From the NCBI GenBank assembly GCA_944376655.1, contig CALWDJ010000024.1:1-33763 (forward strand): a stretch of 33,763 bases of DNA, read 5' to 3'. Under the pieces are notes generated by a model. The model was given only the letters and a program-made list of their open reading frames with translations, did not search any database and was not told where the DNA came from. The DNA is from an uncultured Clostridia bacterium. GTDB lineage: Bacteria; Bacillota; Clostridia; Oscillospirales; Acutalibacteraceae. Shown here one piece after another: positions 3,299 to 27,919 of the stretch (position 1 is the first letter of the stretch; each line of letters begins with the position of its first letter). A program made the position numbers and the translations under genes.

Positions 3299-4444
3299 AT
3301 GAATAAGTTCGGTTTCAAATTTATAAGTATATTTATTGTCATAGCCATGCTTCTTTCAGCTGTCGCGTGCGGAGATGAATCGGAAACAAAAGTTGTCAAA
3401 AAGAAGAAAGTTATTGACCGCTATCATGAGGCGGAAAGCTCTTCTGATGAGAGTACGTCTTCCGATGACAGTGCTTCGGGTTCGGGCGACGATTACATAA
3501 GTATCCCGTCGGGAGGAAGCGATTCTTCGGACGATACGTCGTCTGATAACAGCAGCGAGAGCCTTCCGCTGTATGAGGTCGACCTGGACGGAAAGGGATA
3601 TTCGGACGCTGACGCCAGAATAGGTATGGGGCTCTATCATTATTACCTCGGCGACTGGAATGAAGCATTCGGCGATATGTACGGCGAAGAAATGAGCTTT
3701 ATGAATACGAGCTTTTGTGACGCCGGTTCGGCTATGCTCGCAAAAGAAAATAACAGCGTGGTATGGATCGGTCCGGGAGAAGCATTTGACGACAGGAATG
3801 CTCTTGTTTTCAAAGCCGGCTTTGAGGAACAGCTTGAGATGACGGTACAGGCATATAAGGATGCAGGTTTATGGGATTCGGTCGCAGGCTTCCATTTCGA
3901 CGAGCCGTGCCTTAAATATACCGGCGAACAGTTTAAGGTTCTTACAAAATATCTCGCGGAAACATATCCAAATAAGCGCATATACCCGGTTGTATCCGTT
4001 TATGAAATACGCAATAACGCTCCTGCCGGAACGTTAGTAGGCGAGATGAGCTACGAAAATTACGGATACGTTACCGATATCGGATTTGACTGGTACGGTT
4101 CTGCGGATATCAACGAGCACAGAACCCTTCTCAACGAAATGAAAGAAAAGATCGGCAGAAGCGATGTGAGAATCTGGTTTTTCCCCTGTACCTCAAAGGC
4201 GTATGCGAATCAGGACGAGGATTATATGATAGAGCATCTCAATATGTGCTACGATTTACTTAAAGAGCAGGAAAATCCCGGCGGGCTTATGCTTTATACC
4301 TGGACCACATACGGAACACAGACAGGACTTCATGAGCTGCTTGATCCCAATCTCGGAAATTACCAAAGGCTTGCGGCACGTATAGTTGAAATAGGAAAAG
4401 AAATAAACTCAAATCCGTACAGATACAATAAACCAAAAAACTGA
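3299..4444 (+). CDS. Lipoprotein with an unrecognised glycosidase-like domain (GHx copy A)
   Basis: I do not recognise the family. The 381-residue product has a lipoprotein signal with the lipobox Cys at residue 24, a Ser/Asp-rich linker to about residue 95, and a domain of about 270 residues. That domain has landmarks shared with two other proteins in this window: AGFHFDEP (D201, E202), YVTDIGFDWY (D264), RIWFFP, GGLMLYTW near residue 328, and a C-terminal EIGKE. Acidic residues after short hydrophobic strands, alternating with helices, suggest a TIM-barrel glycosidase with E202 or D264 as candidate catalytic residues. It would sit on the outer face of the membrane. ATG 3299 follows AAAGGAG by 14 nt, an unusually long gap; an in-frame TTG at 3272 lies before that ribosome site and is unlikely. 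It is the first gene after the regulated promoter. The lipoprotein call is strong; hydrolase function is inference. Confidence 0.75.
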   Translation: MNKFGFKFISIFIVIAMLLSAVACGDESETKVVKKKKVIDRYHEAESSSDESTSSDDSASGSGDDYISIPSGGSDSSDDTSSDNSSESLPLYEVDLDGKGYSDADARIGMGLYHYYLGDWNEAFGDMYGEEMSFMNTSFCDAGSAMLAKENNSVVWIGPGEAFDDRNALVFKAGFEEQLEMTVQAYKDAGLWDSVAGFHFDEPCLKYTGEQFKVLTKYLAETYPNKRIYPVVSVYEIRNNAPAGTLVGEMSYENYGYVTDIGFDWYGSADINEHRTLLNEMKEKIGRSDVRIWFFPCTSKAYANQDEDYMIEHLNMCYDLLKEQENPGGLMLYTWTTYGTQTGLHELLDPNLGNYQRLAARIVEIGKEINSNPYRYNKPKN

Positions 4445-4460
4445 AAAGGAGAATGATAAT

Positions 4461-6176
4461 ATGAAGAAAAGAATAGCGGCGCTTCTGCTGTCAGTCGGTA
4501 TTATATGCACTGCCGCGGGATGCGGCGGAACAAAAGAAGATACTTCTTCGATAATCTGGGAATATGAATACAATGATATTTATGAGAGCGGAGAGTCCAC
4601 AGGCAGCGGCAACACTTCGTCAAACAGCTCGTCGGGCTCGGGTAATTCTATCGGGGTTGATGATAATTACCAGCATAATACCGGTACTGAGAATCTTGAG
4701 GGTAATACATATCTTTCCGGTTTTCCGATTGTAAAGGACAAGGAAAAAATCACCATAATGGCGGTTACGCGCTCTGATGTCGGCGATATAACCAACTCTG
4801 ATTTTACAAAGACATATTCTAAGCTCACAAATATGGATATTGAGTGGCAGCTTGTAACTGAGGGCGCCGCGAGACAGAGAGTAACGCTCGCTTTGCAGAG
4901 CGGAAACCTTCCGGATCTCATAGCGCTTGGCAGCAGCTATGTTACAAACGATGATATATTGCGTTACGGCCCTGAGGGTACAATGGTTGAGATTACAAAG
5001 TCAATGCTCGAAAAATGGGCGCCGAACGTCAAGGCGACCTACGATAAGTATCCGGAAGCGTGGGATTACACCAATGTTGACGGCAAGATGTATACAATAG
5101 CCTCGTTTTTCGCGGATTTCCCGTACGGTCAGCATTTTCTGTGGGTGAGAACCACCTGGCTTGACAAGCTGGGGCTTGGCATACCGAAGAATATGAACGA
5201 GTTCTACGATATGCTGAAGGCTTTCAAAAACAATGACCCGAACGGCAACGGACAGAAAGACGAGATACCGTACGCCACATGGAGTGACAGCGGATTTGTC
5301 ACCACTCCGTGGGGTATTTTAGGTAATTCGATAGAATTTGATAACAGCGGCAAGGCGGTATGCTCATATACAACTTCAAATATGAAAAACGCCCTTACCT
5401 TCTGGAACCGCGTATTTAAGGAAGGACTTGTGGACAAAGACTCCATAAACAACTGGACAGGTGACAACGCCGCTTTCAAATCCCTTATATCCGGCGGAAA
5501 GGTCGGCGCGTTCTGGTGGGGTTATCCTTCTGAAATGTCAGACAGTCTGCTCAAGGAATATACCGCTATACCGTGGCCTACCTCGGGTACGGACAACGGC
5601 AATTTCCCGAGCGTAGCGGTTAATATTAGTCAGATGGTTCAGCCGATAGGCTTTATTATCACCAATAAATGCAAAAACGTGCCGGCGGCTCTCCGATTTA
5701 TTGATTATCTCTACACCAATGACGGATATATGCTTAAGGCTTTCGGAAACGAGGGCGGAATATACGATAAAGTAGACGATAATACATATAAGCTGAACGG
5801 CAAAACAGCTGAGCAGAGCACGCTCGGTCCTAACTGGACCGTAATGGCAAGGCATTTTCTTGTGGATGCCGAACTGGTTTCAGATAAGTCACTTCTTAAT
5901 CAGAAGCGTGATGCGTGTAATGAACAGCTTGCGAGTATATACAGCTCACAGGGTCAGAAGATTATTCCGAACGCTCTGAAGAGCAAAACGGAAAATCAGG
6001 ACATAAAGCGTTACAGCACATATTTTGATACCCTGTATGGAAAGAAATACTTGTTTATAAAAGGCGACCTTAACCTCGGAAGCGACTGGACGGCGCTTCA
6101 GAATGATATCAGCGCCAAGGGCCTTTCAAATTATCTTAAATCGTATCAGACATTTTATGACAGAGTAAACAAATAA
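4461..6176 (+). CDS. Sugar ABC transporter substrate-binding lipoprotein, LipO-like type
   Basis: A 571-residue extracellular binding protein for an oligosaccharide importer. The lipobox TAAGC puts the lipidated Cys at residue 21, followed by a Ser/Gly linker. The two-lobed solute-binding domain covers about residues 90-570. It has the DPNGNGQKDEIP loop around residues 257-268, typical of large Clostridial and Bacillus LipO/YtcQ-type binding proteins, and the late hinge segment GFIITNKCKNVPAALRFIDYLY. AAAAGGAG precedes ATG 4461 and the gene starts 16 bp after the GHx lipoprotein. No permease is adjacent: both permease pairs lie more than 10 kb downstream, so its partner is unclear. Proteins of this class usually work with LplB/YtcP-type permeases. 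Confidence 0.92.
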   Translation: MKKRIAALLLSVGIICTAAGCGGTKEDTSSIIWEYEYNDIYESGESTGSGNTSSNSSSGSGNSIGVDDNYQHNTGTENLEGNTYLSGFPIVKDKEKITIMAVTRSDVGDITNSDFTKTYSKLTNMDIEWQLVTEGAARQRVTLALQSGNLPDLIALGSSYVTNDDILRYGPEGTMVEITKSMLEKWAPNVKATYDKYPEAWDYTNVDGKMYTIASFFADFPYGQHFLWVRTTWLDKLGLGIPKNMNEFYDMLKAFKNNDPNGNGQKDEIPYATWSDSGFVTTPWGILGNSIEFDNSGKAVCSYTTSNMKNALTFWNRVFKEGLVDKDSINNWTGDNAAFKSLISGGKVGAFWWGYPSEMSDSLLKEYTAIPWPTSGTDNGNFPSVAVNISQMVQPIGFIITNKCKNVPAALRFIDYLYTNDGYMLKAFGNEGGIYDKVDDNTYKLNGKTAEQSTLGPNWTVMARHFLVDAELVSDKSLLNQKRDACNEQLASIYSSQGQKIIPNALKSKTENQDIKRYSTYFDTLYGKKYLFIKGDLNLGSDWTALQNDISAKGLSNYLKSYQTFYDRVNK

Positions 6177-6278: not shown

Positions 6279-9200
6279 ATGAAAAATATGAAAATTTTCC
6301 GCAGATGGCTTTCTTTGATACTTTCAGTTGCGTTGCTTGTTTCAGCTGTACCGTCGCTTTTTGCCTCTGCCGCGGCTGACGGTCAGGATACCACAGTACT
6401 TTTTGACGGCACATATATGGGCTGGTTCACCGGAACCGACAATAATTCTTATACAGTTCGTATTGGAACACCGGGAATCCTCGAAGGCAAAGATGTACTC
6501 CGCATTACCGCCCAGGAATATAAGGAAGGGTGGAATGAGCTTTACCTTAATTCCAAAACCTTTTCCGAAAGCGGAATCACCGATACTTCTTCGCTTAAAA
6601 CTATTTCGTTTTTTGTAAAAACCGATGAGAATATGGGCGCTTTAAGTCTTAAGTTAAGCGATGTCAAGAACGACAGAAATCCTTATGAAGCAGTTCTCAA
6701 AACCGGAAAATATTATTTGCTTAATACTGAAAGCAATTATGTAACTGCCGCAATGCTCAATGACGGTTATGTGAATATTCCGGGCGGCTTTACCGGATAT
6801 GTCGTATACGACCTTACGACCTGCGATCAGGCACAGGTGACGGCGTTAATGAATCTTGATTTCGGAAGCATGCGCCTCTGGTTCCCATCGGCGTCTGAAA
6901 ATGAGCTTGATACCTCGTGGTATTTCGGCGAGCTCGCTGTCAGTGTAAAAGACGCCGTGACATTTATGGCAGACTATACGTCCGTATCCGCGGTTTCATA
7001 CAGGATACACTCGGGCGATAAGGTTGAAAATTGGGACGGTTCAGTGCAGAGCGCCACAGGCGTGGATGGTATTTTGGACGGTCAGAAGGTAGTAAGCCTT
7101 ACCTTCACGCAAGGCGGCTGGAAGCATGTCTATACCGGAGGATTATCACTCAGTCAAGCGGGGGTAAATGCCGGCGATGTAAAGGGAATGTCCGTATTTA
7201 TAAAGACGGACGAAAAATATGACCAGAGCATCCGTTTCAGCAATTGTAAAGAGTCAGCCGCTCAATATGATTATGCAAATTCGCCGGTTATTCTTTACGA
7301 TATAAACAGCGGTGTGGTTTTAAAGCTTACATCAAACGGTTCCGGCTGCGTGACGATTCCCGCCGGCTTTACCGGATATATGATATATGATTTTGTAAAC
7401 GCTGATTCTACAATCGTAAATAATATCCTTACAGGTAATGGCGGCTTTTCACCGCTCAGATTCAGCGCTGATTTAGGAAATATAAGCGAGCCGCAGACCC
7501 TTTACTTCGGCGATATGAGAGTATGGACCGCCGGAAATACTTCTCAGATGCTCGGTATTTTTGCCGCGGAATCCGGCACCGGCGCGGTTTCATACAGGAT
7601 ACACTCGGGCGATAAAACAGGCACCGTATGGGACAGCCCTGTCAAACAAACAGCCGAGACCGGTGTCGAAGGTGTTTTGGACGGTCAGAAGGTAGTAAAG
7701 CTCACCTTTAAAGATTTCGGATGGCTGCAGCATTATACAGGCGGTTTAAGTCTCACAGCCGCCGGAATAGCGGCTGACGATGTAAAGGCGATATCCGTAT
7801 TTATAAAGGTGGACGAAAAATATGATCAGAATATCCGTTTCGGAAATTATTCCGGGAGCGGACCAAACGCTTGGAAAGAATTTAATTATATAAATTCACC
7901 CGTTATTCTTTATGATATTAACAGCGGAGCGGTTTTAAATCTTACATCAAACGGCTCCGGCTGTGTGACGGTTCCCGCCGGCTTTACCGGTTATATGATT
8001 TATGATTTAAGAAACGAAAAAGCCAATGCGGAGGCGGTGGAAAATCTGCTTACCAAGAATGACGGTCTCTCGCCTCTGAGATTTGGCGCTGTTTTTGATA
8101 AAAAAGAAGATCAAACTTTTGAAGATCAGACCTTTTACTACGGTGATATGAGAGTATGGACCGTGGGCGACGGTATGTCGGCGGCAGCTGCTCTCGGCGC
8201 TGACCTTGAAGCTTATAATTCCGACAGCATAACAGTGCTTGATATGGAAGGAACCGGCACATATAATTACACGAAAGCACCGATTGCTTTCAATACCGAA
8301 ACGGTAGACGGAGTTTCTCCGGATGGTACGGCGCTCAAGCTGACAGAAGCGGGAAGTGAGAACCCCTATCCGTTAGCATGGCACGATTTCCCGGAGGTGG
8401 CTAACCTTTCTGAAATGAAGGCGATTTCCTTCTGGGTAAAGGCGCCCGGCGGGCTGCCTGATACCAATTTCCATTTCTGCGGCGAAGGCTACGGTTTCAC
8501 CGGCACTGTTACTACTGTAAATACTGCGACCGGCGAGGTAGGCGTAAAATATGAGCAGACTAAGCTGTCTCTGCCTGCCGGATTTGAGGGTTATGTTATT
8601 TTTGATTTGGAAACCGCGGTTTTCAATAAAACCTATGGAGGCGACGCCGGTACTTATACATGGCAAACGCTTGTAGGGGATAGAAAAAATTCAGCTTTAG
8701 GCTTCTACTATCATCCCGAAAACTTCCGCGGTGGAGTGCTCTATCTTGACTCATTTACATATCATACCGATGCAGATGCGGCGGCAGAAACGCTTTCGTC
8801 AGCCTCTCTTGCCGGCGATGTGAACAATGACGGCGTGACCGATCTTCTTGATCTTATAAGGGCTAAAAAATATCTTGCCGGCACCGAAGAAACAATAAAT
8901 TACTTTAACGCTAAGTTCACATATGAAATAGGATATTCGATAGCTGATCTTGCGGCTTTAAGAAAGCTGCTTTTGGGTCAGGAGACAGCGCAGCCGGAGG
9001 GCGTTTATGTACCGGCAGCGCTCAATAAGACAGGCGCCGCAATTTTCCATATGACAGTTGATGAATGGAACTATTCCGGTTCTGATGTCAGTGAAGAGCT
9101 ATTTATAAACAACTACGGTACATATGACAGCGTTGATTTGAAAGCTATAAAGTTAAAGGGCGGAGTTTCCTGGCTTCAGCTTTCAACTCCTGCTTTTGCG

Positions 9201-9824
9201 GACAGCAGTGCGGAAATTCCCGAGTCGTGGAAGACTAGGATTGAAACGATCATCGAAACATATAAGCGTCAGGGCGTTTACAATACCATGGCGGGATTCA
9301 TTTTTGAGGAATGCCTTTCGTCGATGACTGTCGAGCAGCATATCGCAGTTACGAAATATCTGCGTGAGACCTATCCCGACAAGCGTGTCTTTGATGTTTT
9401 GCAGTGGTCGGATATTTCTTCGGACAAAATCACTCCGGAATCTTTTGAGTACGTTACCGACATAGCTTATGACTGGTATCATTCGACCGATGCCGAGGCT
9501 CAGCAAACGCTGCTTAGTACCATGCTTGAAAAAGCAGGCAGCCGTTCTGACCTGCGCGTGTGGTTTTTCCCGCTTGCCTGTGAGTTAATGCCTTCAGAGC
9601 CGCTCGGAGCGGAATACGATATAGCGCATATAAATATGTGCTATGATATGCTTAAATCACTGCCTGAGGAACAGCAGGGCGGACTGGTCTTCTATAACTG
9701 GCTCTCGTTTGAGGAAGACGGGCAGCAGATATCAGTCGGAATCGAGGATTTGATTTCAAATCCCGCCTATGCCGCCGTTATAGAGCGTATGGTTGAAATA
9801 TCAAAAGAAATATTAAACAAATAA
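6279..9824 (+). CDS. Secreted multimodular protein: four beta-sandwich-like modules, dockerin, GHx domain (copy B)
   Basis: The 1181-residue product begins with a cleavable signal peptide (after about residue 33). Four related modules of about 190 residues follow (roughly 38-225, 235-425, 434-635, 648-825). Each ends in an aromatic-rich strand such as YYGDMRVW, and they resemble carbohydrate-binding modules. Residues about 846-905 form a type I dockerin-like unit: the first repeat, GDVNNDGVTDLLDLIRAKKYL, has the calcium loop, while the second lacks the acidic ligands. The C-terminal 265 residues are a GHx domain matching the 3299 lipoprotein, with YVTDIAYDWY (D1065) and RVWFFP; here the FDEP motif reads FEEC (E1010, E1011). 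ATG 6279 follows AAAGGAAAG; longer starts would precede the signal peptide. Likely role: a surface-attached or cohesin-docked glycan-binding enzyme. Module boundaries are estimates. Confidence 0.78.
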   Translation: MKNMKIFRRWLSLILSVALLVSAVPSLFASAAADGQDTTVLFDGTYMGWFTGTDNNSYTVRIGTPGILEGKDVLRITAQEYKEGWNELYLNSKTFSESGITDTSSLKTISFFVKTDENMGALSLKLSDVKNDRNPYEAVLKTGKYYLLNTESNYVTAAMLNDGYVNIPGGFTGYVVYDLTTCDQAQVTALMNLDFGSMRLWFPSASENELDTSWYFGELAVSVKDAVTFMADYTSVSAVSYRIHSGDKVENWDGSVQSATGVDGILDGQKVVSLTFTQGGWKHVYTGGLSLSQAGVNAGDVKGMSVFIKTDEKYDQSIRFSNCKESAAQYDYANSPVILYDINSGVVLKLTSNGSGCVTIPAGFTGYMIYDFVNADSTIVNNILTGNGGFSPLRFSADLGNISEPQTLYFGDMRVWTAGNTSQMLGIFAAESGTGAVSYRIHSGDKTGTVWDSPVKQTAETGVEGVLDGQKVVKLTFKDFGWLQHYTGGLSLTAAGIAADDVKAISVFIKVDEKYDQNIRFGNYSGSGPNAWKEFNYINSPVILYDINSGAVLNLTSNGSGCVTVPAGFTGYMIYDLRNEKANAEAVENLLTKNDGLSPLRFGAVFDKKEDQTFEDQTFYYGDMRVWTVGDGMSAAAALGADLEAYNSDSITVLDMEGTGTYNYTKAPIAFNTETVDGVSPDGTALKLTEAGSENPYPLAWHDFPEVANLSEMKAISFWVKAPGGLPDTNFHFCGEGYGFTGTVTTVNTATGEVGVKYEQTKLSLPAGFEGYVIFDLETAVFNKTYGGDAGTYTWQTLVGDRKNSALGFYYHPENFRGGVLYLDSFTYHTDADAAAETLSSASLAGDVNNDGVTDLLDLIRAKKYLAGTEETINYFNAKFTYEIGYSIADLAALRKLLLGQETAQPEGVYVPAALNKTGAAIFHMTVDEWNYSGSDVSEELFINNYGTYDSVDLKAIKLKGGVSWLQLSTPAFADSSAEIPESWKTRIETIIETYKRQGVYNTMAGFIFEECLSSMTVEQHIAVTKYLRETYPDKRVFDVLQWSDISSDKITPESFEYVTDIAYDWYHSTDAEAQQTLLSTMLEKAGSRSDLRVWFFPLACELMPSEPLGAEYDIAHINMCYDMLKSLPEEQQGGLVFYNWLSFEEDGQQISVGIEDLISNPAYAAVIERMVEISKEILNK
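6989..7615 (+). repeat. Intragenic tandem module duplication (33-bp identical segments)
   Basis: A 33-bp segment at 6989-7021 recurs exactly at 7583-7615, a period of 594 bp or 198 codons. A second shared stretch at 7073-7095 recurs at 7676-7698, 603 bp apart, so the later copy gained three codons between the two. The segments begin modules 2 and 3 of the secreted protein. DNA-level identity suggests a fairly recent duplication or ongoing gene conversion. Confidence 0.85.
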
Positions 9825-10005: not shown

Positions 10006-13000
10006 ATGAAAACATCATTTTTCAAATTAAAATTCAGGCACATCGTTGTGTATATCGTTACACTTGCGGTCGTTTTATCAACGGTAAGCGTCGGCTTCGG
10101 CGTACTTGCTGATGAGCCGGTCTATCACCGGCTGCACGCGGGTGACACAGTCGGAGACGTATGGGATTCCGGCAAACAGACAGTTGTGCCAGGTGTAGAG
10201 AATATTTTAGGCGGCCAGACGGTCAACAGAGTAACAGTTACAGCCTCCGGATGGGCACAGCACATAAGCAATTCACAAAGTCTTACAGCCGCCGGAATAT
10301 CAGCGGAAAGCGTCAAGACACTTTCTATTTTTGTAAAGTCGGACGATAGCTCCACAATATTTTTCCGTGCTATGAACCGCTCTGAGGGCGGAGATTACGC
10401 GTATCAGGAATTTAAAGTTACGAACGCGCCCGTATTGCTTTTCGATATAAATAAAAATACTGTTCTTGAAACTTCCACAGACGGCGGCGGCTGCATAAGC
10501 ATAGCGCCCGGATTTTACGGATACATTATATTTGATTTTGAGGGAAGCGACCCTAATCAGGTAACTGATATGCTCACAAAGAACGACGGTCTTTCTCCTT
10601 TGATGATAAGCCTTGATGTCAGGGAATATATAAACGAGATTACCTATTACTACGGCGATATACGCGTCTGGGAATGCGGAACGCAGCAGGCAAAGAAAGC
10701 GCTTTCAGATGAGTATTATTCTTCGAACATATCGGCGCCTGTCGCCGACCCCGACAGCGGCTATGTGAACGCAGGCGATACGGTCACTCTGACCGCTGAG
10801 GACGGCGCGGATATTTATTATACCATAAATACCGAGACTTCCGACCGCGAACCGGCTGTTGTGTTTGACGGTTCGAACGGAGTATCATGGTACGACGGTA
10901 ATAGTTTTGATCTTTCCTATGAAGACGGCGCTTTAGGCGACGGACCTGCCGCGGTATTTACACCGAAAAAGGCTTCATATTCCAATATCTCTATGAATAC
11001 CTCTGCCGGCGCCGAGCCTGTATCGAGAGTTCAGGCTATTACCGTGCGCCTGAAGGTCTCGGATTTCGGCGGGGAAGGAGTCAGTCTGTCACCCTGTATA
11101 AATCATGAGGGATCATATTGGAACGGCACGATTTACGCGGTAGATTCTGACGGAACTGTAACTTCCTTTAACTCTTCGCTTAAACTCAATGATTTTGACG
11201 GAATACTTATTTTCCCGATTAGCTCTTCTACCGAGATTTCTGTTCGGTATTCCGCGACAAAGCTTAAATGGAACGAGTTTATGCAGCAGTACGGAGGACT
11301 TCAGAATATTCAGTTCCTTACTACTGTTCCTGAAAGCGATAATTTCGAAGACGCAATGCTGATTTTTGACAGCTTTACCCTTAATTATGATGCCGCGGCG
11401 CTCATGGAAGAAAAAGCTCCGGATATTGATTTTTCATGGTACACGCCATTTGTTGAAGTTGAGTATCCGGATCAAAATTCCACAAAATATAGCGAACCTA
11501 TAACCGTTGACCGCGATATGACAATCTGCGCCGTAGCTTACAGCGGCGGGAAGAAGAGCATTCCCGTTTCTTTCAGCTACTGGCTGATAGACCCGGACGC
11601 TCCCAATCTGACGCCGCTTAACGACGGCAACGATATATCCCAGACTGATGCTACGGCTAAAGTAAAGGTTGAAATTATAAATGATGCCTCACCTGACGGG
11701 GAAGCGTACTCCGTAATGGGTAACGGAATGAGCGGCAGCGGATATGTTGAATTCAAAACAAAGGTCTATCATTCGTCGCTGGTGCTCAACAATGAGGCGT
11801 TTACCTTCTGGGTATCAATTCCCGGAAATATGAATTATACATTCTCGCCGCGTATTACGACCGAGGCAAATGAGTTTACCGGCACAATGCTCACTTACAG
11901 CACCTCAACAGGTGAGTTTAAAACATATAATCTGGCTGACGGAGTTACGCTGAGCGGATTCGAAGGCTATGTAATACTTAAATTTGACGATAACGCAAAG
12001 GTGAACAACAGCAGCAGAGAATATACGTGGGAAGAGTTTGTAAAGGAAGTAGGCTTCAATTCATTTATCCTTTACAATCAGAACGCGGAGACCGACAGCC
12101 GGTTGTTCGTTATAGACGATTTTGCCTTTGTTACCGATCTTGACGAATATCTTGCCGAGCTTGAGGAAACCGAGCTTCGTCCGGCACTGCCGTATGCCGG
12201 CATCGTCGGCGGAGAGCATGTCGCCGGAACCAACGTCCCTGTCTACGCCGAAACCGGAACAGAGATATACTATACTCTTGACGGCACTACGCCTACAACC
12301 GACAGTATAAGATATGTGCCGATAGGAATGGGCGGAAATGTTGCGGATACATCGCCGATAAACATTAACGAGGATATGACGCTCAAAGCGATAGCTGTCA
12401 AAAACGGGGTATCAAGCCGCATAATAACCTACACATACGCGGTCGAGATACCTTATACCGGTCCTGATACGGTAATTCTGAACGACGGTTCAGGCGAGGG
12501 CAGCAATACCTTCAGCTGGGTTGACACCAATACATGGAATACAACCATTGAAACTGAGAATCTTCCCGACGCTCCCGGCTTTAAGATGGAATACATAGCC
12601 GATGAGTTAAAAGCGACGGCGAATTTCTTTAACGGCAGCTTCAGCCAGTTAGAAAAGCCGTATAAGCTCGAGGCGCTCAGCTTTTACGCCAAAATTCCCG
12701 ATTACGGCGAGGCGCACCACGTTCAGATCGGACTTTATCTTAACGGTGAGTCTACGGGAATAAGAACCAAAATCTATGCTGTGAGTAACAAAGGCAAGGT
12801 ACAGGTGTTTGAAAAAACCCAGAACCTTAAACTCTCAAATTTTGAAGGTGTCATCATTGTTACTCTTGAGGGTGAGGACGCGGTCACACTTGACTGGGGA
12901 GCGAAGTCCATGTCGTGGAACGATTATATGAGAGAAAACACCTTCAATAATATAGGCTTTTATATTTCTTTCGGTGCCGAAATCGACGCGGTAAAGGGAA

Positions 13001-17744: not shown

Positions 17745-17759
17745 GCGGAGGTAGAATCT

Positions 17760-18641
17760 ATGAAAGTAACAAAAGGACTTCACTTACGGCTCGGCCGTTT
17801 TCACCTGACAATTTCCGCTTCACGTGTTTTCGTCTATCTTCTTGTGCTGCTTATGGTGGCATTTACCGCGCTTCCGCTTATATATGTTATTTCCACGGCG
17901 TTCAAGCCGCTCGATGAGCTGCTGAGGTTCCCTCCGATATTCTTTGTGAGGAATCCTACCCTTGACAATTTCCGCGATCTGCTTTTCGCCACTTCAAGCA
18001 GCTCGGTTCCGTTCCTCAGATATGTTATGAACAGCGTGTTCGTCGCTGCGGTAACGGTATTCCTTACTATACTTGTTTCATCAATAGGAGCCTATAGCCT
18101 TGTAAAGCTGGATTTGCCTTTTAAAGGGCTGATATTCAATGTTATAGTCGCGACGCTGATGTTTCCGACCACGCTTGCCACCATACCGAACTATATGGTG
18201 ATAAACTCACTCGGGCTGATGAACACCTATATGTCACTGATAATACCGAAAGTGGCGGGAGCCTTCGGATTTTTCTTCGTAAAACAGTTCTGCGACCAGC
18301 TCCCCGACGCTCTGCTTGAGGCGGCACGGCTTGACGGGGCAAGCGAATGGAAAATATTTTCGCGGATAGTCTTTCCGTTTATGAAGCCGGCGTGCAGCAC
18401 GCTTGTCGTTTTCACGTTTATATCAAGCTGGAACGATTCGTTCGCGCCTCTTGTTTACATAACGGACGACGCTATGCGTACTCTTCCGCTTGCGCTTCAG
18501 TCTATCGGCAGCGGCGCGACTCTCGCGAGAGCGGGCGCGATGGCGGCGGCGACTTTTCTTTCAACCGTTCCAACCATTATTATTTATACTATTATGCAGC
18601 GGCGCGTTATCGCCACTATGGCTTATTCCGGCATTAAGTAG
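17760..18641 (+). CDS. Sugar ABC transporter permease, MalG-like (pair 1)
   Basis: The 293-residue second membrane subunit of the first permease pair. It has the EAA loop LLEAARLDGASEWKIFSRIVFP (E187), here fully canonical, and the family ending in which a hydrophobic helix is followed by QRRVIATMAYSGIK. The early segment STAFKPLDELLRFPP matches CUT1 MalG-type permeases. GGAGGT precedes ATG 17760. It sits between its MalF-like partner and the NHL gene with only 14-15 bp gaps, so it belongs to the same transcript. Together with the upstream permease and the fused binding protein it would form one importer that lacks only its ATPase. Confidence 0.95.
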   Translation: MKVTKGLHLRLGRFHLTISASRVFVYLLVLLMVAFTALPLIYVISTAFKPLDELLRFPPIFFVRNPTLDNFRDLLFATSSSSVPFLRYVMNSVFVAAVTVFLTILVSSIGAYSLVKLDLPFKGLIFNVIVATLMFPTTLATIPNYMVINSLGLMNTYMSLIIPKVAGAFGFFFVKQFCDQLPDALLEAARLDGASEWKIFSRIVFPFMKPACSTLVVFTFISSWNDSFAPLVYITDDAMRTLPLALQSIGSGATLARAGAMAAATFLSTVPTIIIYTIMQRRVIATMAYSGIK

Positions 18642-20095: not shown

Positions 20096-20716
20096 ATGTG
20101 GTGGCTGCAATGCGCTGTTATGATGCTGTTCCATCCTATAGAAATGGTAACGCTTATAAAAAGGCACAGAAAACATATTCCGGCGGGAGCGATGCTTATT
20201 CCGCTTCTACTGTGCGCGGCGGTCAGGATTCTTGCGGTGTACGGAGTGAATTATACCGTATCCTCGGTTTCCCCGGGAAATATAAATCTTCTGCTTGAAC
20301 TGGCGTTCATATTGCTTCCGGTTCTGCTGTGGTCAGTTGCCTGCTACGGTTTTATGACCATAATGGGCGGCGAATCCACATTTACCGAAACTCTTACGCT
20401 GAGCGTTTTCAGTATGATGCCGTATATTGTCCTTCAGCCCGTGCTGACGGCGGTTTCTCGGGTACTTTCATACTCTGAGTCGGGCTTTTACAACGCCGCT
20501 GAAATTTTTATGTTCGGCTGGGTGATAGTTTTGCTTTTTCTCACCTTTATGGAAAGCAATAATATCGGATTCGGAAAAGCCGTGTTTTTTTCATTGCTCA
20601 TAATAGTTACTATGTTTCTTATCCTGTGCGTTACGATGTTGGCGTTCGCGCTGGACAGCCAGATAGTACTGTTTGTGCAGGAAATAATATCGGAATTGAA
20701 TTTCTTTATGAGGTAG
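20096..20716 (+). CDS. YIP1-family-like integral membrane protein
   Basis: The 206-residue protein has about five hydrophobic helices and a short N-terminal segment, FHPIEMVTLIKRHRKH, that fits bacterial YIP1-domain proteins (often annotated PF04893). No enzymatic motif is seen. The start codon directly follows the TAA of the NHL gene, and its ribosome site GGAGGTGAGGAG lies inside that gene, so translation is coupled. The DUF5696-like gene begins 18 bp downstream. The role is unknown: from context it may be a scaffold or accessory subunit of the importer. The family call rests on pattern memory rather than a profile search. Confidence 0.72.
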   Translation: MWWLQCAVMMLFHPIEMVTLIKRHRKHIPAGAMLIPLLLCAAVRILAVYGVNYTVSSVSPGNINLLLELAFILLPVLLWSVACYGFMTIMGGESTFTETLTLSVFSMMPYIVLQPVLTAVSRVLSYSESGFYNAAEIFMFGWVIVLLFLTFMESNNIGFGKAVFFSLLIIVTMFLILCVTMLAFALDSQIVLFVQEIISELNFFMR

Positions 20717-20734: not shown

Positions 20735-22909
20735 ATGAAAAGAAAAAAGATTATAGCTGTCACCGCGGTTGTGCTCGCGGCGGCAATTACGGTAGGAACC
20801 CTCGCTGTTATGAAGTTCAGCTCCGAAACGGACTATTCGCTGCTCGGCAAAACCGATACGGATGCGCCCGAATATCTTGATACAAATCTGCCGGAAACGG
20901 GAGAAACCACACTCGGTACAGAGGGAAGATACTCTCTGATTTATATTGCCGAACCTTTTGAAATACGGCTTGTTGATAACACTACAGGCGAGAGCTTTTC
21001 CACACTTTCAGAGGATGGTACCGAGAATTTTCTTCAGATAGGCTGTACGGATTTCAACGGTAAAAACGATGTTTTCAATCTGTCAGACAGCGAATATTCG
21101 CTTGCCTGCAAGGCTCTGAAAAACGGAGTGGCGCTGGGTATTTATTTAAAGGATTATTCACTCGGGATCACAGTAGAGCTTTGGCTTAACAAGTACGGGA
21201 TTAAAATACGGGTTCCGGTCGACAGCATAATGGAAAAAGGAGAATGGGGAATATATAATCTTTCTGTTTTCCCGACACTCGGAGCGGCGGACGACAGCGA
21301 AAACGGCTTTATCGTTTATCCTGACGGCAGCGGCTCACTTTACCGATTTGCCGATAAGGGCACACAGTCAGGGCCGGTTTCCACCTCGTTTTATTTTGAC
21401 AGCTCGTTTGACCTTGACAGCGTGGAAGAAAGCATCAGGCAGGGAGAGCAATATATAATGATACCGGCTTTCGGCATTTCAGACGGCAGCAAGGCTGTTT
21501 CCGGATATGTTACCGAGGGCGACAGCAACTGTTATCTGACGCTTTCTCCCAAAGGCTTCGGAGGGGGACTTAACCGGGTATATGTTTCATGTATGTACAG
21601 GAAAAGCTATTCGTATACTTCACCGAGCGGAGTGGAGATAAACGAGACGGAAAAGGAAATATCAGCTTCAAATTTCGCCGTTCAGTATTTCTTTACCGAA
21701 GACGGCGGGAGCACGTTTACATACAGCGATATCGCAATGCTTATAAGGGAGTTTATGATTGAGGAAAAATATCTTCCCGAGCGTGAAATAAGCGGGAACA
21801 GAGTAAATATACAGCTTATTATGGGCGCTATGGAAAATACGGGTATCGGCTCCGCTTTCAAAAAGCTTACGACCTTTGAGCAGGCACAGGAAATAACAGA
21901 AGAATTTACTCAAGTGCAGCGCAAATCGCTGAGGCTGTATCTCCTCGGATGGCAAAGCGGAGGATACGGACTCAATCCGTCCGGAGACAGTGTTTCAGGT
22001 AAACTCGGTGGAAAGTCGGGTCTTAAAGAGCTTAATGAATGGCTTGAAGAAGAGGGAACGGAGTGCTATCTCGCGGTGGATTATATAGCCGCCTCTTCTG
22101 ATGGCAAGGGATTTAATAAAAATTCGCAGGCGGTTTACAATGAGATGAAACAGCCGATAAGCAACAGCGACTATTCGGAGTTTCTGAGAAATCCGCTTAA
22201 AGAGCTTGCGGAATTTACCGGAAAAAGGCTTTCTTATATAAAGAATCTTTCCGCATACGGTGTGGCGTTTGAAAAGAGCGGATATTATCTTTATGATGAT
22301 TATCAGAGCGGACGTGAGATTAACCGCACGCAGGCTGTCGCTGCGCTTTCGGGATTGGCTGCCGCTGCGCTCGATGAATCGGTGTCTGCCGCCGTTCAGG
22401 GCGGAAACGCCTATATGCTCAAAAACGCTTCGGTGCTTTACGATTTGCCCGAATGCAATTCAGGCAACTCCGCTATGACATGCGCTATTCCGTTTTATCA
22501 GATGATAGTGCACGGCTCTGTACCTTACTGCGGAACAGTGCCCGGGAATATGGCGTCTGACTATCAGACCGAAAAGCTGAAATGGATTGAATACGGAAGC
22601 GAGCCTTATTTCGTGCTTACTTACGCTTCGGCGGATCTTATGAAGAACACATATGTTACCGACGCCTACGCTACGGATTATGAGCAGTGGATAGAAACCG
22701 CGGCGGAATGTGCCGAGGAATTTTCCGGAAAGCTCGCCTTTACGGCCGGAAGCGTTATGGTTTCGCATGAATATTTAAGTGATGATTTAGTAAGAGTAAA
22801 GTATGATAACGGCAGCAGTATAATAATAAATTATTCGTCTGAAGAACAGATTGCGGACGGTGTTGCCGTTCCGGCTGAGGATTATGTAGTGATCGGAGGA
22901 GAGAACTGA
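20735..22909 (+). CDS. DUF5696-like membrane-anchored extracellular protein
   Basis: The 724-residue product starts with basic residues and one hydrophobic helix (about 5-25) without a lipobox, so it is probably anchored by its N terminus with the rest outside. Residues about 55-330 look beta-rich, like the N-terminal sandwich of several glycosidase families. The central part has RLYLLGWQSGGYG, then GGKSGLKELNEWLEEEGTECYLAVDY, suggesting a TIM-barrel-like domain. This pattern matches what I recall of DUF5696 proteins found beside sugar ABC genes in Firmicutes. A hydrolase role is possible but no catalytic residues are assigned. The stop overlaps the next permease start by one base (ATG at 22909), tying it to the second permease pair. 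Confidence 0.7.
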   Translation: MKRKKIIAVTAVVLAAAITVGTLAVMKFSSETDYSLLGKTDTDAPEYLDTNLPETGETTLGTEGRYSLIYIAEPFEIRLVDNTTGESFSTLSEDGTENFLQIGCTDFNGKNDVFNLSDSEYSLACKALKNGVALGIYLKDYSLGITVELWLNKYGIKIRVPVDSIMEKGEWGIYNLSVFPTLGAADDSENGFIVYPDGSGSLYRFADKGTQSGPVSTSFYFDSSFDLDSVEESIRQGEQYIMIPAFGISDGSKAVSGYVTEGDSNCYLTLSPKGFGGGLNRVYVSCMYRKSYSYTSPSGVEINETEKEISASNFAVQYFFTEDGGSTFTYSDIAMLIREFMIEEKYLPEREISGNRVNIQLIMGAMENTGIGSAFKKLTTFEQAQEITEEFTQVQRKSLRLYLLGWQSGGYGLNPSGDSVSGKLGGKSGLKELNEWLEEEGTECYLAVDYIAASSDGKGFNKNSQAVYNEMKQPISNSDYSEFLRNPLKELAEFTGKRLSYIKNLSAYGVAFEKSGYYLYDDYQSGREINRTQAVAALSGLAAAALDESVSAAVQGGNAYMLKNASVLYDLPECNSGNSAMTCAIPFYQMIVHGSVPYCGTVPGNMASDYQTEKLKWIEYGSEPYFVLTYASADLMKNTYVTDAYATDYEQWIETAAECAEEFSGKLAFTAGSVMVSHEYLSDDLVRVKYDNGSSIIINYSSEEQIADGVAVPAEDYVVIGGEN

Positions 22910-23787
22910 TGAAAAAGAACCTTTTAAGCTCGGCGGCTCGCCGGCGTGAAGCGCTTACCGGTCTGCTTTTCATTTCTCCGTGGATCATAGGGGTATGCGT
23001 ATTTTTCGCGTTTCCTATTTTCAGGTCCCTTCAGCTCAGCTTTGTAAATGTTATAAATATGACCGACTATAAGGTTGAATGGGCAGGAATATCGCACTAT
23101 AAGGAAATAATCCAGACCGATACGTGGTATGTAAAGCATTTTCTTACAAAATGCCGTGAAATGCTTTATCAGGTGCCGCTTATAAATATTTTCTCGATTT
23201 TCATCGCCATTCTGCTCAACCGTAAATTTAAGGGGCGCACGGTTTTCCGTGTGGTGTTTTTCCTGCCTGTAATATTAGGCTCCGGATTTATAATGTCTCA
23301 GCTTGTTTCACAGGGCGTTCAGGGAGAAGCGATGGAAACGGCGCAGAATGTGCTTCTTCCGATGGAGGTAAAAATCTTTCTCGGTGAAAAAGCCACAAAG
23401 TTTGTCACTGATTTTCTTACGATTATTTCTTCCGTTCTTTGGAAATGCGGCGTGCAGATAATAATTTATCTTTCCGCGCTTCAGAGCATAGCGCCGAGCC
23501 TTTATGAGGCGGCGCGTGTTGACTCGGCAACCGAATGGGAGATGTTCTGGCTAATAACATTCCCGATGATGACGCCGAATATACTGCTTAATCTGGTATA
23601 CACGGTGGTAGACAGCTTTGTCGGTGCGGACGATCTGCTTTTCAAGCATATACAGAACATAGGCTTCCAGAACAGTCAGTTTGAAAACGCCTCGGCAATG
23701 AGTTGGCTGTTTTTTGTCTGGGCGATTTTACTTGTCGGAATAATTTTCGTAATAATGCGGCCTTTTGTAAATAAGGTCAGGGAATAA
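22909..23787 (+). CDS. Sugar ABC transporter permease, MalF-like (pair 2)
   Basis: The 292-residue membrane subunit begins with an N-terminal helix of the LLFISPWIIGVCVFFAFPIF type and has the EAA loop LYEAARVDSATEWEMFWLITFP (E200). The glycine that normally follows the EAA-x-x-D segment is Ser here. It overlaps the end of the DUF5696-like gene by one base, so translation is coupled to that accessory protein. Sequence and loop differ clearly from the pair 1 permease, so this is a separate lineage, not a recent duplicate. It should pair with the permease 14 bp downstream. Its binding protein could be the LipO-like protein at 4461 or the fused protein at 13943. Confidence 0.95.
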   Translation: MKKNLLSSAARRREALTGLLFISPWIIGVCVFFAFPIFRSLQLSFVNVINMTDYKVEWAGISHYKEIIQTDTWYVKHFLTKCREMLYQVPLINIFSIFIAILLNRKFKGRTVFRVVFFLPVILGSGFIMSQLVSQGVQGEAMETAQNVLLPMEVKIFLGEKATKFVTDFLTIISSVLWKCGVQIIIYLSALQSIAPSLYEAARVDSATEWEMFWLITFPMMTPNILLNLVYTVVDSFVGADDLLFKHIQNIGFQNSQFENASAMSWLFFVWAILLVGIIFVIMRPFVNKVRE

Positions 23788-23801
23788 GGAGGAGAGATGC
23801 T

Positions 23802-24731
23802 ATGAAATCGGTTAATAAGCCGTCTTTGAAAAAATCGGATGTATCATCGTTCCTTTTCCGCCTTATGGTTTATCTGCTGCTTACGGGACTGGCGTTTGTT
23901 TTTGTTTATCCTTTTATCAGCATGCTTGTCGATTCGTTCAAGAGCTATAATGACATTTCCAACAATACAGTAAAATGGATACCGCACGAACCTACGATTC
24001 AGAATTATAAGCTCGCGCTCGAGGCGCTGAATATCTGGAGAACCGGCGCGAATTCCATTATCGAAACAGCGGCGGCAACCGCGGGACATATAATTTCCTG
24101 CTCGCTTGTGGCTTACGGTTTCGCGCGCTTCCGCTTTCCGCTTAGAAACGCGCTTTTCGGGATTGTTGTGCTGTCCATTCTTATACCTACACAGACTATA
24201 ATTATTCCGTCTTATATAATCTATACCAATCTGCATATGACAGATTCGATTCTGCCGATGGTAATTCCGTCGTTTTTCGGTTTCGGTCTGCGCGGAGGAA
24301 TATTCATATTCATTTTCCGTCAGTATTTTCTGAGAATACCTAAGTCTATAGAGGAAGCGGCATCGATTGAAGGCTGCGGACCTATAAAAACATTTTTCAG
24401 AATAGTGCTTCCGACAACCGGAGCCACAATGGTGGTATGTCTTCTGCTTTCTGTGGTGTGGCATTTCAACGATTCGTACGAGCCGTCAATTTACCTTACC
24501 TCGTACAGTAAATTTATGCTTCCTCAGATGCTGTCGATACTTTCAGACCAGCTTTCAACAATGCAGAACGACGTAAGCTCAGGTTTGTCGGCGCTTACGA
24601 ATACCGTAATATATCACAAAGGAACCGTTATGGCGGCTACAACTATCTGCCTTATACCGCTGTTTGTTTTCTATATCTTTATGCAGCGTAAATTTGTGGA
24701 AGGCGTTGAGCGGTCGGGTCTTGTGGAATAA
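23802..24731 (+). CDS. Sugar ABC transporter permease, MalG-like (pair 2)
   Basis: The 309-residue subunit has typical MalG/UgpE features: VYPFISMLVDSFKSYNDI near the N terminus, the EAA loop SIEEAASIEGCGPIKTFFRIVLP (E185), and the ending MQRKFVEGVERSGLVE. There is a long extracytoplasmic segment before the last helix (about residues 235-275, LSDQLSTMQNDVSSGLSALT). ATG 23802 follows AAGGAGGAG; an ATG at 23797 is out of frame and opens only two codons. It is the last transport gene before the enzyme block, and GH36 starts 22 bp downstream. The family is certain; the partner binding protein is not. Confidence 0.95.
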   Translation: MKSVNKPSLKKSDVSSFLFRLMVYLLLTGLAFVFVYPFISMLVDSFKSYNDISNNTVKWIPHEPTIQNYKLALEALNIWRTGANSIIETAAATAGHIISCSLVAYGFARFRFPLRNALFGIVVLSILIPTQTIIIPSYIIYTNLHMTDSILPMVIPSFFGFGLRGGIFIFIFRQYFLRIPKSIEEAASIEGCGPIKTFFRIVLPTTGATMVVCLLLSVVWHFNDSYEPSIYLTSYSKFMLPQMLSILSDQLSTMQNDVSSGLSALTNTVIYHKGTVMAATTICLIPLFVFYIFMQRKFVEGVERSGLVE

Positions 24732-24753
24732 TACATAATTTTGGGGAGTAATA

Positions 24754-26970
24754 ATGTCAATCACATATTTTGAAGATAAAAGAGTGTTTTCCCTTGATAC
24801 GGCGGGAACTACATATCAGATGCAGATAGGAAAAGGGGATTACCTTGTTCACCTTTATTATGGCGAAAGGCTTGAAGGCACCGCCGAATCAGTGTATACT
24901 TATAACGCTAATATATATTGTCCGGAACCTATGGATCTTCCGCCCGGCACACTGTCACCGAATATGCTTATGCTGGAATACCCGGCTTCCGGAACGGGAG
25001 ATTACAGGACGCCTTGTATTGACGTGATTTTTGCCGACGGCTCACGCGCGCTTGATTTAAGATACAGCGCTCACCGTATTTACAGCGGAAAACAGCCTAT
25101 TGAGGGTATGCCCTCCGCGTTTGCGGGAGAAAAGGATATACAGGTTCTTGAAATTACGCTTAAAGATACGGTAAAGGATTTTTATGTAACGCTTGTTTAT
25201 TCGGTTTCTGAAGATACAGATTCCATAACACGCTCGGCATATATCCTGAATAAAGAACCCGAACCGGTTGTTCTTAAATCGGCTTTAAGCTGTTGCGTCG
25301 ATATATACGGCGGCAGGGAATATGATTTGGTGCGTTTTATGGGACGCGCGCTTATGGAGCGTGAGCTTATACGTACGCCTCTTACACAGGGAAAGCTGTC
25401 ATCTGAAAGCGTACAGGGTTTATCCGGACATTCGTCAAACCCTTTTATCGTTATGTGCGGGAAAAACACCGATGAAAAAAACGGAGACTGCATGGGAGTA
25501 ATGCTGATATACAGCGGCAATTTTACGGCTTCGGCAGAGCTTGAGCCGCATGGGAACGCAAGGGTAACGGCAGGAATTCATCCGTACGGCTTTTCGTGGC
25601 GGCTTGATAACGGGGAGACTTTCTGTACACCGGAGGCGGTGATATCTTACAGCAGCTACGGATTTACGAGGCTTTCCGACAATTTTCACAGAATAATAAG
25701 AGAGCATATCTGCCGTGGAAGTTACAGCCTTAAACGCCGTCCGGTTCTTCTGAACAGCTGGGAGGCGCTGATATACGACTTTGATTATGATAAGCTGATG
25801 TCTCTTGCTGACGCCGCGTCGGACTGCGGAATAGAAATGCTGGTGCTTGACGACGGCTGGTTCGGAAAAAGAAATGCCGATGACTGCAGCCTTGGCGACT
25901 GGATTCCGAATGAGAAAAAGCTCGGCGGAACACTTGCCAATCTCGCCGCCGGCGTAAATGAGCGCGGACTTAAATTCGGACTGTGGTTCGAGCCGGAAAT
26001 GATATCGCGAGACAGCGACCTTTACCGCGCTCATCCCGACTGGTGCCTTCAGTGCCCCGGAAGAACTCCGGCTGAGTGCCGCAATCAGCTTGTTCTTGAT
26101 ATGTCGCGCCCGGAGGTATGCGAATACCTTTACAACAGTATTTCAGCTGTTCTGTCGTCGGCTAATATAGAGTATGTTAAATGGGATATGAACCGTCCGC
26201 TTACCGATGTGTATTCGGCAAAGCTGCCTCCTGACAGGCAGGGCGAGCTGTATCACCGGTATGTTTTAGGACTTTACGGTCTGCTTGACAGGCTGACATC
26301 AGATTTCGAAAATGTGCTTTTTGAGGGCTGTGCGAGCGGCGGCGGACGTTTTGACGCGGGAATGCTATATTATTTTCCACAGATATGGTGCAGCGATAAC
26401 AGCGACGCGGTAGACCGTCTTTTTATTCAGTACAATACATCGTTCGGATATCCGATGTCGGCTGTAAGCGCGCATGTCTCGCCGGCAAAAAGCCATCAGA
26501 CAGAGCGTTCCATGCCTCTTGAGACACGCTGGATAACCGCGATGACCGGAGCGTTCGGTTATGAGCTTAATGTGACGCTGCTGTCACCGGAAGAGAGAAA
26601 AGAAATACTCAGGCAGACAGATTTTTACAGGGAGTACGCCGATTTGTTTCTTAAAGGCAGATATTTCAGGCTTAATGACCCAAATAAAAATGATGTAGCC
26701 GCATGGGAATTCATATCTGATAACGGCGAAACGGCTTTTGTCGGCGCAGTACAGAGACATTTTTCTCCTAATAACTGTCCGGCGGTGCTGAGGCTTTCAG
26801 GTCTTTTGAGCGGCGCGTGTTATGATGTTTCAGAAGCCGGAAGACAGATTCTGACCGGAGTTACCGGAGACGTTCTTATGAAGACGGGAATAACCGTTAA
26901 ATACCGGAGGGAAGAGTATCCGGCAACCTATTTTATAATCACAAAAGAAAAGAGTGTTAATAATGAATAA
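24754..26970 (+). CDS. GH36 alpha-galactosidase, cytoplasmic
   Basis: Hydrolyses terminal alpha-galactosyl residues from imported oligosaccharides such as raffinose-type sugars or galactan side chains. The 738-residue length fits bacterial GH36 enzymes that form tetramers. An N-terminal beta-supersandwich (about 1-320) precedes the barrel, with LLNSWEALIYDF, VLDDGWFGKR and LWFEPEMIS. The nucleophile is D478 in YVKWDMNR and the acid/base D548 in WCSDNSDA; the glycine/cysteine-rich LFEGCASGGGRFD lies between. Both catalytic residues are present and the gene is intact. No signal peptide, hence cytoplasmic. GGGGAG precedes ATG 24754. The last 8 bases overlap the following GHx gene. Confidence 0.97.
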   Translation: MSITYFEDKRVFSLDTAGTTYQMQIGKGDYLVHLYYGERLEGTAESVYTYNANIYCPEPMDLPPGTLSPNMLMLEYPASGTGDYRTPCIDVIFADGSRALDLRYSAHRIYSGKQPIEGMPSAFAGEKDIQVLEITLKDTVKDFYVTLVYSVSEDTDSITRSAYILNKEPEPVVLKSALSCCVDIYGGREYDLVRFMGRALMERELIRTPLTQGKLSSESVQGLSGHSSNPFIVMCGKNTDEKNGDCMGVMLIYSGNFTASAELEPHGNARVTAGIHPYGFSWRLDNGETFCTPEAVISYSSYGFTRLSDNFHRIIREHICRGSYSLKRRPVLLNSWEALIYDFDYDKLMSLADAASDCGIEMLVLDDGWFGKRNADDCSLGDWIPNEKKLGGTLANLAAGVNERGLKFGLWFEPEMISRDSDLYRAHPDWCLQCPGRTPAECRNQLVLDMSRPEVCEYLYNSISAVLSSANIEYVKWDMNRPLTDVYSAKLPPDRQGELYHRYVLGLYGLLDRLTSDFENVLFEGCASGGGRFDAGMLYYFPQIWCSDNSDAVDRLFIQYNTSFGYPMSAVSAHVSPAKSHQTERSMPLETRWITAMTGAFGYELNVTLLSPEERKEILRQTDFYREYADLFLKGRYFRLNDPNKNDVAAWEFISDNGETAFVGAVQRHFSPNNCPAVLRLSGLLSGACYDVSEAGRQILTGVTGDVLMKTGITVKYRREEYPATYFIITKEKSVNNE

Positions 26971-27919
26971 GACATTGGCAGATGGAAGGCCTTACGCTTC
27001 AGATAAACTGGGATTCGGGATATATCATTTTGCGCAGGGCGCTGAGGACGCAAGGGGATATAAAGATTCTGAAAACTTCCCCCACGACGGCGCCGACCGC
27101 AGGCAGTGCGACCGTCAGGAAAGGCTGGACTATATGAATATGTATATTTACCGGCTTGATGAATCCTGCTATGACCATCTGCGCAGGATTAAGGAAATGG
27201 GTTGTGTCACATGGGTGTTTTACTCGCCTTTTGTGTCGGTTGAGATAGGCGGCAAGCAGGAAAATCACCTGAAAGCCGGCTGGCGTGATGAGATTACAAA
27301 ACTGGTGGACGGTGTAAAGGAAGCTGGACTCTGGGATGTTGTTGCGGGATTTCAGTATGATGAGCCGATGCTTAATGTTACCACGGAGGTTTTTGAGGAA
27401 TTTTCGTCTTTTATGGCTACTTTTGGCAAGCGTCAGCTTGCTATATTCTCATATTATGAGGTGGTCGAAGGTTCAAATCCGCGTTCATGCGACCCCGAAT
27501 ACGGCAAGGAAGCGCACCTTATCACGCCTGAATCCTGCAAGTATCTTACCGATATTGGATTTGACTGGTACAGAAAATTCGATTATAATGAATTTAAAAA
27601 GCTGACTGATATAATGCTCGGACGATTAGGCCGTGACGATGTTTATGTATGGCAGGTTCCTACAACATGGACATTTTACGACAATAAGGACTTTACCGAG
27701 GAGCTTTGCATAGAAAGCCTTGAGGGCTGCTATAAGCTGCTGCTCGACAGCAAAAATCCAGGAGGACTTTTCTGCTATACATGGCGCTCATGGCTTAATG
27801 TGAAAGAGGGACTTGACTACCGTTTCAATACGGAAAATCACGAGCGCTGGGAGAAGCTTGAAAAGCGTATGATGGAAATCGGAAAAGAGCTTCGCGAAAT
27901 AAAGCTGAATGTCCTTTAA
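26963..27919 (+). CDS. Cytoplasmic GHx protein (copy C of the unrecognised glycosidase-like family)
   Basis: The 318-residue protein is an unrecognised family member that aligns with the lipoprotein at 3299 and the C terminus of the protein at 6279. Shared landmarks are GIYHF near the N terminus, VAGFQYDEP (D133, E134), YLTDIGFDWY (D201), YVWQVP, PGGLFCYTW, and an ending EIGKE. It carries about 60 extra residues between the first strand and the barrel core, rich in Arg, Asp and Tyr. No signal peptide, so it acts in the cytoplasm. ATG 26963 lies within the end of the GH36 gene and overlaps it by 8 bases, with only a weak A/G-rich ribosome site, so translational coupling with the alpha-galactosidase is likely. 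Function is unknown; position between GH36 and GH35 favours a galactoside-related hydrolase. Confidence 0.78.
   Translation: MNKTLADGRPYASDKLGFGIYHFAQGAEDARGYKDSENFPHDGADRRQCDRQERLDYMNMYIYRLDESCYDHLRRIKEMGCVTWVFYSPFVSVEIGGKQENHLKAGWRDEITKLVDGVKEAGLWDVVAGFQYDEPMLNVTTEVFEEFSSFMATFGKRQLAIFSYYEVVEGSNPRSCDPEYGKEAHLITPESCKYLTDIGFDWYRKFDYNEFKKLTDIMLGRLGRDDVYVWQVPTTWTFYDNKDFTEELCIESLEGCYKLLLDSKNPGGLFCYTWRSWLNVKEGLDYRFNTENHERWEKLEKRMMEIGKELREIKLNVL

Follow-up and report, generated by a model that had tools for sequence, protein, structure and literature searches.

A candidate glycosidase-like barrel family, GHx, with secreted and cytoplasmic members in Clostridia

Among the barrel enzymes that act on glycans, GH36/GH27/GH29-type barrels use carboxylates on strands 4 and 6, members of clan GH-A carry a catalytic glutamate at the end of strand 7, and GH18 is recognized by the strand-4 motif DxxDxDxE. 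In the GH123/DUF4091 group (PF13320, beta-N-acetylgalactosaminidases), one report describes a DE motif whose two residues serve in substrate-assisted catalysis as acetamido stabilizer and acid/base, and finds little or no activity when the Asp is mutated to Glu or Asn (PMC11087588). Here we describe GHx, a family without a name in the libraries searched that has a glycosidase-like fold and setting and is present in three copies in one gene array of an uncultured Clostridia bacterium. The term unnamed refers to Pfam, NCBIfam, PHROGs and PDB sequences.

Three homologous copies and their neighbors

The window is the whole stretch of 33,763 nucleotides that was analyzed, contig C24 of the host genome. 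All sixteen genes between 3299 and 31614 share one orientation; no gap exceeds 181 bp, and the overlaps measure 1 and 8 bp. Two further genes upstream are divergent.

512..2332, minus strand: divergent GH20C-type hexosaminidase-like gene (PF18088 4.6e-50, PF00728 1.9e-8)
2160..3101, minus strand: divergent AraC-type regulator (PF12833 2.1e-21)
3299..4444, plus strand: GHx copy A, lipoprotein-like; barrel domain modeled from 3605-4444, with E202 and D264
4461..6176, plus strand: SBP1, solute-binding lipoprotein-like (PF01547 3.6e-17)
6279..9824, plus strand: GHx copy B, read as secreted, with CBM-like repeats, a dockerin from about 8811 and a C-terminal GHx domain (8997-9824) in which E1010-E1011 replaces D-E
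10006..13860, plus strand: large protein that combines CHB_HEX_C repeats with CBM-like motifs (PF13290 1.2e-25)
13943..16831, plus strand: SBP2, solute-binding protein (PF13416 1.8e-31); sub-threshold CBM35/Golvesin_C matches in the N-terminal part
16842..18641, plus strand: ABC permease pair 1, two genes (PF00528 in both)
18656..20716, plus strand: NHL-repeat protein and Yip1-like membrane protein
20735..22909, plus strand: DUF5696 protein belonging to a common uptake cassette (PF18952 6.7e-132)
22909..24731, plus strand: ABC permease pair 2, two genes (PF00528 in the first; the second, at 23802-24731, is a putative permease assigned from position and reading)
24754..26970, plus strand: GH36 (Melibiase), directly upstream of copy C (PF02065 1.7e-141)
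26963..27919, plus strand: GHx copy C, without visible signal, with D133-E134 and D201; 8 bp overlap with GH36
27937..29715, plus strand: GH35 beta-galactosidase-type gene (PF01301 4e-115); listed TTG start uncertain
29764..31614, plus strand: GH127-like gene (PF07944 1.1e-12)

The listed start of the GH20C-type gene, which overlaps the AraC regulator, is uncertain, and the start of copy C falls within the final 8 bases of the GH36 gene. Alongside its two ABC permease pairs and its two binding proteins, the window shows no ABC ATPase signature (LSGGQ) in any of the six frames.

A sequence-only reading of the window had proposed a glycosidase-like domain shared by three proteins of this array. 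The three open reading frames lie at the coordinates it gave, each with a ribosome-binding-like sequence upstream as judged by eye, and the homology of the domains was borne out by blastp, with 38% identity over 211 aa between copies A and C (E 8e-41), 35% over 275 aa between A and B (E 2e-43) and 25% over 310 aa between C and B (E 1e-19), which is far above chance. The ordered motif series on which the proposal rested was also found in all three copies and in the same order. Its AGFxx(D/E)E motif ends at E202 in copy A, E1011 in B and E134 in C, the TDIxxDWY motif holds D264, D1065 and D201, respectively, and the GGLxxYxW and EI(G/S)KE motifs are present in each copy. The two residues of copy A singled out for mutation, E202 and D264, carry the correct numbers, and both are invariant in the 41 aligned relatives.

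The N-termini, from which secretion or cytoplasmic location was assigned by eye throughout, agree with the three locations suggested earlier (lipid-anchored, secreted with dockerin, and cytoplasmic). Copy A begins with a hydrophobic stretch followed by a lipobox-like cysteine, copy B has a signal-like N-terminus and a dockerin that scores 23.2 bits against a Pfam cut-off of 22.9 (PF00404), and copy C has neither signal nor dockerin. These are the only GHx copies found in the host genome (1.99 Mb in 55 contigs, 96% complete). Four cohesin matches above the cut-off were identified in the same genome on contigs C46, C42, C44 and C23, in a search that passed the cut-off in 1 of 14 control genomes too; together with the dockerin they make it plausible that copy B is attached to a surface complex. 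CBM-like modules with a GFxGYxxxD-type motif are common to copy B (6279-8800) and the 1284-aa protein at 10006-13860.

Predicted fold and putative active site

The sequence-only reading could place the domain in no named family, and the profile searches sustain this, as no convincing match was obtained in Pfam, NCBIfam or PDB sequences. At E 1, Pfam returned nothing for copies A and C, while copy B gave the dockerin plus three matches at chance level; NCBIfam gave two chance-level matches for A and none for B or C; PHROGs searched with the three copies gave chance-level matches only, and searches of PDB sequences ended at chance level or without a match. When the 41 aligned members were searched, the matches were scattered over one or two members each, the best E being 0.0069 for Pfam and 0.017 for NCBIfam. 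Viral contigs and plasmids contained no match to the one window protein used as query. A literature search that covered few subscription papers returned nothing recognizable as GHx, and no paper for DUF4434 or DUF5696.

The TIM-barrel fold proposed from alternating motifs was recovered in AlphaFold predictions as a confident (beta/alpha)8 barrel with conserved acidic residues where strands 4 and 6 end. Copy C was modeled from 20 alignment rows (model 1; pLDDT 83.8, pTM 0.87) and the copy A domain from 32 rows (model 2; pLDDT 93.3, pTM 0.91), the latter showing eight strands alternating with helices. In the domain numbering of copy A, to which 102 is added for the full protein, E100 comes directly after strand 4 of model 2 (93-99), and D162 is the last residue of strand 6 (158-162), with Y164 after it. 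E100, T157, D158, D162, Y164, W191 and G227 are invariant in all 41 sequences; the near-identical record of the window's locus (L015 and L018), two fragments (L033 and L035) and repeats of named loci were left unaligned. A consecutive Asp-Glu in the style of GH123 stands at the end of strand 4 in 35 of the 41, position 99 being Asp in these and Glu in the other six, and the six E-E proteins read as secreted, copy B included. The probable acid/base is the strand-4 glutamate, corresponding to E202 in copy A, E1011 in B and E134 in C.

A Foldseek search with model 1 was headed by aldolases and GH30, followed by glycosidases mixed with other barrels. With model 2, glycosidases made up 31 of the 50 matches listed (4h41, GH158, GH2, GH164, GH53, GH10, GH18 and a chitinase), and the remaining 19 were designed Kemp eliminases, which are built on a GH10 scaffold. 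All 50 have TM scores of 0.57 or less and identities of 8-15%. Since these scores are weak and the matches mostly glycosidases, the predicted GHx domain appears to be a barrel of the glycosidase type to which no solved structure in the libraries searched comes close. A viral structure library gave weak barrel matches.

Distribution and recurrent loci

GHx is rare. Of the 398 genomes from the host's own family, 5 gave a match, the host among them, and in one of the five (G229) the match is no more than a short fragment interrupted by a stop; at class level 2 of 391 genomes matched, namely the host and one weak GH123-type match, and at phylum level only the host among 199. DUF5696 is present in 128 of 290 genomes of the family, and given these frequencies the idea that GHx is part of the DUF5696 uptake cassette was dropped. 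A scan of a species-genome collection identified 21 loci from 130 pattern matches, and this carrier count is a lower bound because a single eight-residue pattern was used. Most carriers are MAGs of Clostridia, and the sample names of several point to animal guts; there is also one Erysipelotrichaceae MAG, and the carrier of locus L028 is a named strain rather than a MAG, Pumilibacter muris strain CLA-AA-M08. Profile searches in four carrier genomes found 14, 4, 3 and 2 matching stretches; the 14 belong to SIG563 and represent 11 GHx genes in a 1.7 Mb genome, in which the pattern scan had flagged two loci.

The SIG563 loci are L147-L151, L153 and L154, and four of the genes (L148-L151) are divergent, with extra residues after strand 6 as read by eye. 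In L149, a single gene separates a GHx gene from that of a 563-aa protein (2740-4431) with matches to GH129 (PF11308 9.9e-21) as well as DUF5696 (PF18952 4.5e-8), a sequence-level lead that DUF5696 may be a GH101/GH129-like glycosidase family.

For the comparison of gene order we considered 25 loci, comprising the window (nearly identical in L015/L018), 19 others from the pattern scan and L147-L151, with the same contigs counted once (L152 is L032, L153 is L020 and L154 is L016) and the fragments L033 and L035 included. A first type resembles the window (the window, L016, L017, L019, L020, L031, L032+L152 and L147). In the second type (L021-L023 and L025-L029), a secreted lipoprotein-like GHx protein of 684-1108 aa is accompanied by a cytoplasmic GHx, which is short, and by a GH36-like gene, and an ABC permease pair precedes this set in seven of the eight loci, the exception being L026. 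L024, on a 4.4 kb contig, shows cytoplasmic GHx and GH36. A GH36-type gene adjoins the cytoplasmic GHx or lies one gene from it in 11 of the 25 loci (the window, L021-L029 and L032+L152), and KxDxN and a later SD are kept in all nine GH36-like proteins of L021-L029.

Secreted and cytoplasmic GHx occur together in 12 of the 25 loci (the window, L019, L021, L022, L023, L025-L029, L032+L152 and L147), where for L032, whose N-terminus is missing, secretion was taken from a dockerin-like stretch; the other 13 are without one partner or are cut off at a contig end or flank limit. A maximum-likelihood tree of 32 domains has four changes of location, which would become three without L022_s, a long and poorly placed branch. 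In this tree the L019 trio, two secreted members and one cytoplasmic, forms a 100/100 clade, so the split between secreted and cytoplasmic forms arose within the L019 lineage. The repeated pairing supports, without proving, one activity on both sides of the membrane.

Other features of these loci may be recorded here. The dockerin-GHx frame at L032:853-1719 has one in-frame TGA (a sequencing error, a pseudogene or recoding). A GH94-like gene lies directly 3' of copy C in two loci of the first type (L016:10988-13501 and L152:9925-13642), followed in L152 by a trehalase-like gene. Nag-type genes were sought near loci of the second type, and none was present among ten neighbor proteins checked, one from L019.

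The GH123 trace and the competing readings

The weak class-level match, L037, reads as GH123-type; it was itself selected by a search of 391 genomes, with E 7.9e-4 for one genome, and is the top scorer among the GH123-type proteins below. The control set of 72 proteins was made up of L037, 27 proteins fetched with the GH123 Pfam model and 44 from GH20, GH18, DUF4434 and GH36. The five best scores against the GHx profile were all GH123-type (19.1, 12.4, 8.6, 7.6 and 6.7 bits), the best other protein reached 4.9, and 23 of the 28 GH123-type proteins stayed at background. Among 7200 shuffles none reached 12.4 bits and five reached 6.7, and reversed sequences reached 3.0. The shared stretch covers about 55-80 residues from helix 3 via strand 4 to about strand 5, and the D-E of GH123 falls on D99-E100 in all eight GH123-type alignments in which the DE segment was read. 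A GH123-related hexosaminidase structure (8k2h) appeared in the same register at E 0.34, which is chance level, as two telomere-protein chains score better in the same PDB profile search.

The likeness to the GH123 group consists of an adjacent acidic pair in register at the end of barrel strand 4 and a conserved glycine on strand 8 of the GHx model, the GH123 side of which is taken from PMC11087588. However, copy C is a 318-aa barrel with no room for the N-terminal beta-sandwich of GH123, and four residues past the strand-8 glycine GHx has Tyr or Phe, not the conserved Trp. The low activity of GH123-group Asp mutants also argues against full equivalence for E-E copies such as copy B. PF13320 (GH123_cat) was matched by none of the 41 members at E 0.1 and by nothing in the host genome at E 1e-5, the 50 Foldseek matches listed for either model include no GH123 structure, and hhalign probabilities of GHx against GH123 are not significant (15.9 with 32 rows, 3.7 with 20 and 7.9 with 41; for reference, GH20 against GH123 gives 5.2, and the type-2 secreted group against the other 34 GHx domains, as a positive control, 99.8). 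The GH123 relation is best taken as a lead from sequence comparison, not as membership.

On the basis of homology, predicted fold, invariant residues and genome context, we infer catalysis, mechanism, substrate and order of steps as follows, with a probability of roughly 0.4 for the reading as a whole. GHx would be a new (beta/alpha)8-barrel glycosidase family, faintly GH123-like, that acts outside the cell and, after import, inside. The strand-4 glutamate (E202 in copy A) would serve as acid/base, with the preceding acid (D201 in A) and the strand-6 D264 completing the site. Because of the faint relation to GH123, the likeliest chemistry appears to be a retaining, substrate-assisted mechanism that cleaves beside an N-acetylhexosamine, in which the Asp-Glu pair of strand 4 would play the part of the GH123 DE motif. 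Copies A and B, lipid-anchored and dockerin-bearing, would work at the cell surface on a gut glycan that contains galactose or hexosamine and cut it there, the two ABC importers would take in the products, and copy C would act on them inside the cell with the GH36, GH35 and GH127-type enzymes. At the same rough odds, taken jointly, several Clostridia lineages would have independently split a faintly GH123-related GHx into a surface and a cytoplasmic copy, and both copies would act on the same linkage, one before and the other after an alpha-galactose-bearing gut glycan is imported.

GHx could instead be a new glycosidase family that is not substrate-assisted, with E202 and D264 as a classical two-carboxylate pair and, jointly, an alpha-galactoside or another glycan without N-acetylhexosamine as substrate. 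We regard this as a real possibility that still falls short of even odds. E100 and D162 are invariant and position 99 varies between Asp and Glu, carboxylates on strands 4 and 6 are the arrangement of GH36/GH27/GH29-type barrels, and the recurring partner gene is GH36-type. However, GHx shows no sequence relation or profile link to GH36 itself (hhalign probability 0.6), and the one sequence trace found leads to the GH123 DE segment.

It is unlikely that an existing CAZy family, be it the GH123 group, GH18, GH20 or the DUF4434 fold of BT_0435, includes GHx as a distant branch that ordinary profiles miss; this proposal overlaps with the preferred reading of a faintly GH123-like family and does not exclude it. 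The GH123 trace speaks for it, as does 4h41 (BT_0435; DUF4434, PF14488), the top Foldseek match of model 2 (TM 0.52-0.55), in which a Glu stands in the segment GGWYI-x-x-E, read as strand 4. However, hhalign probabilities lie between 0.3 and 15.9 over GH123, GH18, GH20, DUF4434, GH36 and DUF5696, and do not exceed 8.6 once GH123 is set aside; the DUF4434 and DUF5696 comparisons are weak tests, with alignments of two and three rows. The identity to 4h41 is 10%, and PF14488 has no match in the 41 members at E 0.1 and none in the host genome at E 1e-5. GH20 (PF00728) is likewise unmatched in the 41 members at E 0.1, with hhalign probabilities of 0.3-2.2. GH18 resembles GHx in its barrel and in an Asp after an aromatic residue at the end of strand 6, and in one comparison its strand-6 YD aligned near the GHx TDIxxD, an attractive reading of TDIxxDxY as xxYDxH. 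Nevertheless, the probability fell from 8.6 to 0.7 as rows were added, no GH18 Pfam match was found in the 41 domains, and DxxDxDxE is absent from GHx, whose strand-4 consensus is GFYxDEP; GH18 is kept only within this alternative. Clan GH-A was dropped, as the strand-7 region of GHx reads WxxP without a conserved acid.

That the barrel is a sugar binder or catalyzes another reaction, such as that of a lyase or isomerase, is improbable: TIM barrels serve many chemistries, glycosidase activity of GHx is a prediction and aldolases lead the model 1 list, but a dockerin and CBM-like modules are part of copy B, the acids are conserved at strand ends, the context is one of sugar import, and the matches listed for model 2 are glycosidases or GH10-derived designs.

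With the family missing from Pfam and NCBIfam, loci carrying GHx are at present half unread. The recurrent combination of secreted and cytoplasmic GHx with a GH36-type gene provides a concrete pathway hypothesis, and the named carrier strain, Pumilibacter muris CLA-AA-M08, would make expression and growth work feasible if the strain is obtainable.
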